Assembly (NCBI GenBank): GCA_030630935.1
Contig: DAOVMD010000098.1
Coordinates: forward strand, 1 to 8,941
DNA from: Candidatus Mcinerneyibacteriota bacterium
GTDB taxonomy: Bacteria > AUK180 > JAQVHJ01
Direction: 5' to 3'
Length of the DNA: 8,941 nucleotides
Part shown: positions 4,989 through 8,941 of the stretch, piece by piece
Layout: each line of letters begins with the position of its first letter
How positions within the stretch are numbered: position 1 is the stretch's first letter
Notes under the pieces: generated by a model
What the model was told of the DNA's origin: nothing
Databases searched by the model: none
The model's input: only the letters and a program-made list of their open reading frames with translations
Made by a program: the position numbers and the translations under genes

Positions 4989-6488
4989 TTAATATTGTTG
5001 ATTCATGCTCCTCAAGAACTCAACATTTTTCTTTGTATTTCTGAGTTTCTTCACGAGGAACTCCATTCCTTCAAGTGTTCCCATCGAACTTAAAATCTTA
5101 CGCAGGATATAAATCCTCTGCATTTCAAATTCTCCAAGGAGAAGCTCTTCTTTTCTGGTACCTGATCGGATAAGGTCAAATGCTGGAAATACTCTATTAT
5201 CTGAAAGCCGTCTATCGAGATGGATCTCCATATTACCGGTGCCCTTGAACTCTTCAAAAATTACATCATCCATTCTTGAACCGGTATCGATTAAAGCTGT
5301 TGCAATAATTGTTAATGACCCACCCTCTTCTAAGTTTCGGGCTGAACCAAAGAATTTCTTTGGTTTTGAAAGTGCACTTGCTTCAATTCCTCCGGATAAA
5401 ACTCTACCTGTAGATGGAATAACTGAGTTATGAGCTCTTGCAAAACGTGTAATTGAATCAAGCAAAATCACAACGTCCTTCTTATACTCAACTAATCTTT
5501 TTGCCTTCTTCAAAACCATCTGAGCTACTGCGACATGCCTTGTGGGGGATTCATCAAATGTAGATGAGATGACTTCACCATTAACGGACCTTTCCATATC
5601 TGTGACTTCTTCCGGACGCTCATCAATTAAAAGAACGATTAAAACTACGTCCGGATGATTAATCGTAATCGCATTTGCTATCTCTTTTAATAACAATGTC
5701 TTTCCCGCACGCGGAGGTGAAACAATCAAACCACGTTGGCCTTTTCCTATTGGAATAAACATGTTCATTACTCGTGATGAAAACATTGAAGGCTCAAACT
5801 CTAACTCAAGTCTTTCATTTGGATAGATAGGAGTTAAATTATCAAATAAGGTTCGGGTCTTTGCTTTCTCAGGATTTTCATGATTTACCGCTTCGACTTT
5901 TAATAATGCAAAATATTTCTCACCATCCTTCGGTGGGCGAATCATTCCGGAGACAGTGTCCCCGGTCCTTAAGTTAAAGCGCCGCATCTGTGAAGGAGAT
6001 ACATAAATATCTTCGGGACCTTGAAGATAATTATAATTAGGTGAGCGTAAAAAACCAAACCCATCATCCAATATCTGAAGAACACCTTCACCATAAACAA
6101 AACCGTTCATCTCAATTCGCTTTTGAATAATTTTAAAAATTAAATGCTGCTTTCGAATATTATGATAACCGGGAATACCAACATTCTTTGCAATTTCAAA
6201 TAATTCCTGGATCGTCATTTTCTCAAGCTTCACAACATCCATAACCTCTTCCTTCTTAAAATTCTTGGAAGGCGGCGATGTTTTAACTGGCGCAGGTTTC
6301 ACTTCTTCCACGGGTGGCGGGGTTACTTGCTGCTTTGTAATAGTAGGGGTGGATGTCTTTGATTCTACTGGGGGTGGGGTTGGATCCGGTGAAACGGGTT
6401 TCTTAACCTTAGGAGGACGACCACGTCCTCGTTTCTTCGGAACTTCAATATTATCTTTTTTCGCGCTACCTGACTTTTTCGGATTCAT
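4989..6488 (-). CDS. rho: Transcription termination factor Rho
   Basis: This 499-residue protein is a hexameric RNA-dependent ATPase that ends transcription of untranslated RNA. The Rho N-terminal helical domain is at about 87-128. The RNA-binding S1/cold-shock domain is at 132-205 ([21 protein letters not shown]). The RecA-like ATPase domain has P-loop SPPRAGKT at 257-264 (Lys263), [10 protein letters not shown] at 289-298 with Glu290, Walker [13 protein letters not shown] with Asp344, and the Q-loop region [23 protein letters not shown] split around 363-385. Asp-Arg-Arg-Leu at 425-428 carries the arginine-finger region. E. coli Rho has 419 residues; the excess is an N-terminal tail with an AT-hook-like [10 protein letters not shown] (18-27) and a Pro/Thr/Val-rich linker (31-77). 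GGAGG (6498-6502) lies nine bases before ATG. It is the first gene of an operon with the protease and propeller genes and has a strong promoter upstream. Confidence 0.98.
6311..6400 (-). promoter_or_regulatory. C-rich, G-poor stretch in rho mRNA (possible rut site)
   Basis: Counting bases on the coding (minus) strand, these 90 bases contain 38 C and 11 G in an otherwise AT-rich sequence. They encode the Pro-rich linker of Rho. Rho-utilisation sites are long, unstructured, C-over-G RNA segments, so this is a candidate loading site for Rho on its own message. The proline codons alone could also cause the bias. Confidence 0.35.
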
Positions 6489-6920: not shown

Positions 6921-6954
6921 GGCAGTAGGGGTTTCCAGCTTGAAACCCTGACCA
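6921..6954. repeat. GGGTTTC hairpin, probable interspersed repeat
   Basis: GGGTTTC (6929-6935) and GAAACCC (6942-6948) pair perfectly around CAGCTT; the flanks GGCAG and GACC extend the look of the common 'ggggtttc...gaaacccctgacc' dispersed palindrome. It lies in the predicted leader of the barrel gene, about 40 bases before its start codon. With no U-run after it, termination is unlikely. Confidence 0.5.
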
Positions 6955-6977: not shown

Positions 6978-6982
6978 AGGAG
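6978..6982 (+). promoter_or_regulatory. RBS that fixes the true start of the barrel gene
   Basis: AGGAG lies six bases before ATG 6989, which begins a signal peptide. The ATG at 7095, where the long open frame appears to start, has only GAGGGA jammed against it. The upstream start is therefore the biological one, and it is out of frame with the rest of the gene. Confidence 0.8.
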
Positions 6983-6988
6983 TTACTA

Positions 6989-8057
6989 ATGAAAAAGAAA
7001 ATGGTACTATTCTTAATATTGTTTTTTTTTCTTTAACGTTATTAAGGGATATTCTCTATACTATTATGATTTAGTAAATGGTAAAGGTGAGGGAATGGCA
7101 GGGGCATTAACTGCTATTGGCAATGATATCCAATCAATTTATTGGAACCCTGCAATTGGATCGATGATTAAAGAAGAAAGGATGTCTTCTGGGTTTTCGT
7201 ATTATAGTGGTAATACAGAGGGCTTATCCCCTCGAGTTTATTTTAACAATTTTTCAATATTATTTCCATTAGAAAAATTCAATATTGGCTTTATATATTT
7301 TACTCCAATAAACTATGCAATGTCAACAAAAATTGATGGTTATGATATGTATGGTAATCCTACAGGGAAATTTGAGATCAAGTATGAAATGTTTATTAGG
7401 AAGCATGGAATTCATTTTTCAAGGGAATTTGTAAATGAAAATTTCGGAATTGGGATAAATTTATATTACAATAATATTGAAAATAGTATAAAGATAGCTG
7501 ACTATGTTTTGACAGCAACTGCCGATACTTTTAATTTTGATCTTGGAATTCATTATCATCCAGGTGAGATATTTGTTCTCGGTTTAAAATATTCAAATAT
7601 CAGTAAATTTACCTATAAAAAAGATTCATATTCAGATTCTTCTTTTTCTGATGGTGAAATAATTCCAACAGAATTGGTAATAGCTATGGGACTAAATTGT
7701 AAGAAAGTTAAATTTGGTTTTGATATCTTTGAAATCAAATGGTCAGAAAATAAAGAAGAGGATTATACTTATTATATTGGACCTTCAAAATATCTTCCTA
7801 CAAATGATTGGAGAGGTTTTAGACTTGGAACAGAGATCGATATTTATAAAAAACAAGTATTCCTTCGTCTTGGAATTAGAAGAAATTTCTGTACTGAAAA
7901 TTCATTTTACTATTACGGTTCTGAAAATATTGGTTTAGGTATTATACGTGATAAACATGGTTTTGATTTTGGATTAAGTAAATTAGAAAATCATGAATTT
8001 AGCATTAACGAAGGAAGTTATTATTCATTTAGAGCTGATTTCTATCTGAATTATTAG
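6989..8057 (+). pseudogene. PorV/PorQ-like outer-membrane beta-barrel, frameshifted in a T9 tract
   Basis: From ATG 6989 the frame reads MKKKMVLFLILFFF, a signal peptide, then meets a stop at 7073-7075. The body is open from 7017 in another frame and ends at TAG 8055-8057. Removing one T from the nine at 7022-7030 joins them into a 355-residue protein with signal peptide 1-22 and mature start near LYYYDLVNGKGEGMAGALTA. This N-terminal DLVxGxGxxGxAGA...DIQSIYWNPA block (27-55) is the hallmark of the PorV/PorQ/UPF0164 barrel group. The body alternates aromatic beta strands and ends FRADFYLNY, a typical barrel C-terminus with a final aromatic residue. PorV-type proteins act at the outer membrane, some in type IX secretion, but many relatives have unknown roles. 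Apart from the frameshift the gene shows no decay, which suggests a switchable gene, recent loss or sequencing error. Starting at 7095 would give 320 residues without a signal peptide. Confidence 0.8.
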
Positions 8058-8390: not shown

Positions 8391-8769
8391 CTAATTCTCC
8401 CATTTATCCAGAGCAGGGTCAATTTTCACTCCAAGAATTTCTACAAGTTGACCATAGATTGTTTTTATCTCTATTATATAACCATCAAAAGTTCGATTAA
8501 TTACTAAATTTAACATATAATTAATACAATCTTCCTCCGCAATCTCGTCAAACTCAGCCGAAATCACTTTGGTGATTTTTATGTGTAATTTACGACCTAA
8601 ATCTACAATGTGTTTTTTGGTTCTGAAGTTTTTAATAATAATCCACCCAATCCTCAAATGACTTGGGCGCACATTTTCGAATCAACTCGGAAGTTCCTTC
8701 AAAACTATGCGATTTAATTAATCTCCAAAGGAAATACTCTATTTTTAAAATATTTATTGAAAATTTCAT
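8391..8769 (-). pseudogene. Broken unrecognised gene, split over two frames
   Basis: From ATG 8769 one frame gives 45 residues ending SELIRKCAPKSFEDWVDYY and stops at 8634-8632. The adjoining frame continues, from about 8640, as KNFRTKKHIVDLGRKLHIKI and ends NLVINRTFDGYIIEIKTIYG...LGVKIDPALDKWEN with TAG at 8393-8391. Removing one base near 8629-8643, where T and A runs meet, joins them into a smooth protein of about 125 residues. The 93-codon frame that begins at GTG 8672 has no RBS and its first residues overlap the better-looking other frame, so that start is an artefact. I do not recognise the family with confidence; the segments DWVDYY and VINRTFDGY give a weak impression of restriction-endonuclease-like proteins, which I cannot confirm. 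The ending looks early, so the protein may be truncated as well as frameshifted. Confidence 0.6.
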
Positions 8770-8941
8770 TCCTTAATTCTAGTAGATCATCGGATACTTT
8801 CTCATTAACAGAAATTTGCATATAATAACTGTTATAAATCCTTTCTTGCATCACTAAAGTGCTTAAAGCACAATTATGAATTATTATAGCCAGTGCTTCT
8901 TCATGATCGTATCCCTCTTTTAATAACTTTCTAAATAGGTA
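8714..8941 (-). CDS. Partial unrecognised protein, runs off the right edge
   Basis: The minus strand is open from the window edge to TAA 8716-8714, giving 75 residues that start YLFRKLLKEGYDHEEALAII and end FNKYFKNRVFPLEIN. It is charged, mostly helical-looking, and has no signal peptide or membrane segment. It overlaps the next downstream frame (ATG 8769) by 56 bases. It may be a separate upstream gene, or the first part of the same broken gene: removing one A from the A5 run at 8746-8742 would continue it as NKYFKIEYFLWRLIKSHSF. The downstream ATG has AAGGA directly abutting it, too close for a good RBS, which favours the broken-gene reading. Function unknown. Confidence 0.55.
   Translation of the reverse strand, partial: YLFRKLLKEGYDHEEALAIIIHNCALSTLVMQERIYNSYYMQISVNEKVSDDLLELRNEIFNKYFKNRVFPLEIN

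Follow-up and report, generated by a model that had tools for sequence, protein, structure and literature searches.

The window, 8,941 nt of DNA, is the entire contig C110 of a MAG that amounts to 3.16 Mb in 471 contigs, is 80% complete, and has a GC content of 33% in the part surveyed here. It contains a putative surface-protein gene whose start and body lie in different reading frames, between a divergent rho gene and the remains of a restriction enzyme:

4989..6488, minus strand: rho, transcription termination factor, the divergent neighbour, in a block conserved in the nearest relative
6978..6982, plus strand: Shine-Dalgarno sequence AGGAG, spaced 6 nt from the ATG
6989..7036, plus strand: ORF of the ATG frame as assembled, 15 codons (MKKKMVLFLILFFFL) followed by TAA at 7034-7036
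7017..8057, plus strand: open frame with the remaining signal peptide, then the mature part of the PorV/FadL-like barrel, which probably starts at ~7053
7022..7030, plus strand: T9 tract at which the two frames part
8391..8772, minus strand: relic of a MjaI-type restriction endonuclease, with an N-terminal piece covering profile positions 17-41 and a middle piece covering 45-115 of 164

The short ORF encodes the n-region and the greater part of the h-region of a signal peptide, and the T9 tract falls at its codon 12. The barrel frame is open for 346 codons from 7017 to its stop at 8055-8057 and contained no ATG, GTG, or TTG upstream of 7095. An alternative start within this frame was rejected, as the first possible one, at 7095, would cost the signal peptide. 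A previous sequence-only reading had described a ribosome binding site and ATG opening a signal peptide, nine T at exactly 7022-7030, a barrel in another frame open from 7017, and fusion of the frames into 355 codons on loss of one base from the tract, all of which we reproduced. It had placed the stop of the ATG frame at 7073-7075, but that frame already ends at the TAA after 15 codons; the TAG at 7072-7074 belongs to the third frame and can be reached from the ATG only with one extra base. The rest of the gene was indeed undamaged, with no further lesion across the 346 codons and a normal coding score of 0.342 per codon (57th percentile of the genome's genes) that was even across thirds. Since the coding signal is normal over all three thirds, either the change is recent or the barrel gene is still under selection. 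The central claim, a barrel gene that loses its frame at a tract prone to slippage within its signal peptide, was therefore supported, and the intact remainder is predicted equally by phase variation, programmed slippage, and an isolated assembly error.

The gene product is predicted to be an outer-membrane beta-barrel of the PorV/FadL superfamily. The downstream frame matched the PorV family NF033709 over residues 23-286 (E 1.8e-12), where the barrel copy by itself reached 47.5 bits, below the model cut-off of 90, and it also weakly matched the FadL/TodX family. Compared with the known PorV and FadL/TodX barrels (PDB 6h3i, 3brz, and 1t16), a profile of the barrel and its paralogues fitted PorV of the type IX secretion system (6h3i) along its length (E 3.8e-19), and the profile of paralogues from the same genome and its relatives matched TodX and FadL more weakly. 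The alignment of the barrel with these paralogues starts right after their signal peptides and includes the conserved N-terminal glycine-rich stretch and NPA motif (GEGMAGALTAIGNDIQSIYWNPA). A single-sequence AlphaFold2 model of the barrel had a pLDDT of 29. In the closest paralogue, L002 (30%), the signal peptide is intact and free of long runs, and a long tract was absent from the paralogues' signal peptides. Another PorV-like paralogue carries an in-frame G8 run at the conserved MGGA motif (L019:5116-5123, C223), and its orthologue in the nearest relative (G001) is without that run.

One genome of the barrel's own genus was included in the comparison, and the nearest genome compared belongs to another genus of the same family (MAG 'bacterium isolate STE_202', JAQVHJ01, 72% complete). 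The order rho, S55 peptidase, and a gene of 713 aa is kept in this relative, and the barrel gene is absent from it, with a GGDEF gene (named from sequence) upstream of rho at the barrel's place. We found no barrel orthologue in that 72% complete MAG, a protein search of genome contigs likewise returned no orthologue, and viral contigs searched with a DNA pattern of the flank and tract gave no match. The missing orthologue and the GGDEF gene upstream of the relative's rho suggest that the barrel gene is accessory. On its other side, the pieces of the MjaI-type relic are in different frames, the reading frame changing near 8634, and the C-terminus is missing. An open ORF at 8714-8941 adjoins the relic and continues past the contig end. 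Because the next gene is a decayed restriction enzyme, the stretch appears to be losing genes, and such ongoing gene loss fits a nascent pseudogene.

We surveyed homopolymers in 130 contigs of the genome (952 kb with 789 coding segments, ~30% of the genome), with coding calls from a simple hexamer model that misses short frame breaks at gene starts, the T9 type included. Well inside coding segments, 487 A/T runs kept a single frame: 367 of seven bases, 108 of eight, and 12 of nine, the last all A9. Two-frame junctions at A/T runs mostly had the start codon of the next gene nearby, as in ordinary operons, and the A8 runs at such junctions, few in number, all fitted this pattern. Frame transitions at runs with no start nearby were confined to two A10 runs (L055 and L203), one A9 run (L041), and the T9 tract at 7022-7030. 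The A9 run at L041 (L041:5300-6250, C22, minus strand) marks a frame change in what is by eye an IS630-like transposase with a further stop, possibly a slippage-expressed or a decayed insertion sequence. Around the start of the barrel gene itself, an upstream hairpin at 6928-6949 and the CTCC/GGAG pairing flanking the Shine-Dalgarno sequence were considered and rejected: each exact palindrome occurred once in the survey, the looser CTCC/GGAG pattern was common (62), and the folding was unremarkable (z -1.09).

The 487 runs that keep a single frame make a systematic homopolymer indel error in this MAG unlikely, and we rejected it. The sequencing-error alternative is therefore less likely than the earlier reading had allowed, the part that stands being a single local error that added one T to the tract of an intact barrel gene. 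We consider this unlikely. The assembly is fragmented (471 contigs, 80% complete) and T9 is among its longest runs, which would favour a miscount, but the 108 8-mers and 12 A9 runs within coding sequence all keep frame, and the other long runs seen to break frame comprise two in transposase-like genes and one conserved across genera.

We compared observed run counts with those expected from synonymous shuffles of the same proteins. Sense runs of T>=9 were absent from 796 kb of coding sequence against 25.9 expected (range 20-34), A>=9 occurred 15 times against 100 expected, and sense T8 occurred 24 times against 58.5 expected, in some cases within signal peptides. Genes with a Shine-Dalgarno start had T>=7 within the first 40 codons in 19 of 502 cases, three of these being T8, and many of the T>=7 runs near gene starts were within signal peptides. 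Near 5' ends, 706 kb contained three further sense T9 runs, two of them terminator-like and one ending in an in-frame stop. A T9 run at L106:1780-2253 separates two ORFs of the same frame, one for a short membrane anchor and one for a thioredoxin-like protein, and ends in an in-frame TAA. T7-T8 in Phe-rich signal peptides is ordinary in this genome, and as T>=9 is purged while T8 is seen in signal peptides, T8 is tolerated and T9 is the exception. Baranov et al. explained such depletion of long A/T runs by selection against slippage of RNA polymerase (PMC1088944). The survey thus yields a local yardstick, T9 purged and T8 tolerated, with which to separate chance slips from selected ones.

Measured against this yardstick, we somewhat favour the reading that the barrel is an accessory surface gene left in an off state by a replication slip from T8 to T9, either as a nascent pseudogene or as a chance off allele. 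The run of Phe codons in the signal peptide would normally be T8, as is ordinary for a genome of 33% GC, and a slip during DNA replication would have extended this presumed T8 ancestor to T9. Ribosomes starting at 6989 are then predicted from the sequence to terminate after 15 codons, and most transcripts would lead to little or no export of the barrel. Tracts of U9 induce RNA polymerase slippage in other bacteria, which makes some leakage plausible, and with T9 slippery for both polymerases the off state can probably revert and is likely to leak slightly. Nothing we found marks the tract as a selected on/off switch.

Such a switch was what the sequence-only reading had in mind when it called the tract a classic site of slipped-strand phase variation. 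This is possible but found no support in a genome with two simple-repeat arrays in 952 kb and long T runs purged. In that reading, a tract selected for phase variation would reversibly toggle barrel export through slipped-strand mispairing, and the assembly would have captured the off state, which we regard as decidedly unlikely. It would suit a predicted surface protein with a tract inside its signal peptide and a gene otherwise intact, and the length of the tract does set the frame of the gene, as in phase variation at simple sequence repeats (SSRs). Tract lengths also change in this genome, as shown by two transposase-like copies that are 95% identical yet have A10 in one and A9 in the other at the same run. 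In that pair (L246 on C103 and L247 on C282), the A10 copy is out of frame and the A9 copy probably in frame. Meningococcal homopolymers of >=8 are mostly variable (PMC5084427), but A/T tracts make up 95% of the weak meningococcal candidates and G/C tracts are the commonest among the strong ones (PMC5084427). No second allele of the barrel tract was seen in the one genome of the genus, and the paralogues have no long tract in their signal peptides. Repeats were not enriched in the genome or its surface genes, as the two SSR arrays and the depletion of long A/T runs in genes show, and two arrays do not amount to a contingency repertoire.

We hold it to be improbable that slippage on U9 during transcription supplies a constant share of in-frame mRNA, and with it a low level of barrel expression independent of the state of the DNA; in the strongest form of this reading, T9 would be kept for that purpose. 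An A/T run of ~9 or more does lie at the frame transition (T9, 7022-7030), the depletion of A/T>=9 (A, 15 against 100 expected; T, 0 against 26) is the signature described by Baranov et al. (PMC1088944), and Shigella mxiE depends on slippage at a U run (PMC1088944) at a reported 20-30% (PMC4256274). The earlier suggestion that T9 would support transcriptional slippage is thus possible as such, but the barrel frame is restored by the loss of one base (or the gain of two), whereas polymerase slips within runs mainly insert, so the deletion required is the rarer kind. In Buchnera, 151/157 insertions but only 16/57 deletions were located in homopolymers (PMC5574713). A weak +1 ribosomal shift could add to slippage at the CUU-UAA-C at 7031-7037, which spans the stop and is preceded by U9, but we gave this motif little weight and rejected a prfB-type shift because no SD-like element precedes it, prfB of this genome is itself unshifted and lacks a frameshift site, and CTT-stop-C ends 0/789 surveyed genes.

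A parallel for slippage comes from another gene of the same genome. At L055:4959-6145 (C36), an ORF for an FMN_bind lipoprotein enters A10, beyond which a membrane 4Fe-4S protein (Fer4_5) follows in the -1 frame, its ORF lacking a start codon. The arrangement recurs with A10 in the nearest relative (L239) and with A9 in a genome of another family of the same class (G004, L240), so that the -1 transition at A9-A10 is present in three genera of the class. FMN_bind and 4Fe-4S are fused in one frame in two genomes of one further genus (G002 and G003). That the transition is conserved between genera suggests either programmed slippage or -1 ribosomal shifting for the FMN_bind/4Fe-4S gene, and as a candidate for programmed slippage its poly-A run is stronger than the barrel T9. 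We found no published FMN_bind/4Fe-4S frame transition in a limited literature search, which is weak evidence of absence. That slippage on U9 sets a low and noisy export of the barrel, in a lineage that joins FMN-binding and 4Fe-4S domains by slippage on poly-A, would be the most far-reaching extension of this parallel, and we hold it to be highly improbable.

As it stands, the recent slip from T8 to T9 that we favour makes the locus a clean example of such a change in an accessory surface gene. If the tract were a real switch, it would bring homopolymer control of a surface protein to an uncultured lineage distant from the pathogens that are well studied. The conserved poly-A frame transition is a by-product of the analysis that is open to direct testing.

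Known systems resemble the barrel locus in part. Like the poly-G genes pldA and fliP of H. pylori (PMC11756786) and the meningococcal tracts (PMC5084427), the barrel has a homopolymer within its coding sequence and is off by one base, and many phase-variable genes of these species encode surface proteins, as the barrel is predicted to do. Those cases are seen to switch on and off within a strain or from strain to strain, and G/C tracts are frequent among the strong ones, whereas the barrel is known from one assembly with T9. In Shigella flexneri mxiE (PMC1088944, PMC4256274), a T tract likewise parts an upstream ORF from the functional frame, but slippage there inserts a base and has been shown experimentally, while the barrel would need the loss of a base and is a candidate from its sequence. 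Citrobacter rodentium tssM1 (PMC4256274) is likewise a gene interrupted near a homopolymer with the rest intact, rescued by slippage at ~20-25%. Its tract is an A11 late in the gene, at which a base is inserted and both products are needed, whereas the barrel has a T9 at codon 12 and an upstream product of 15 residues.
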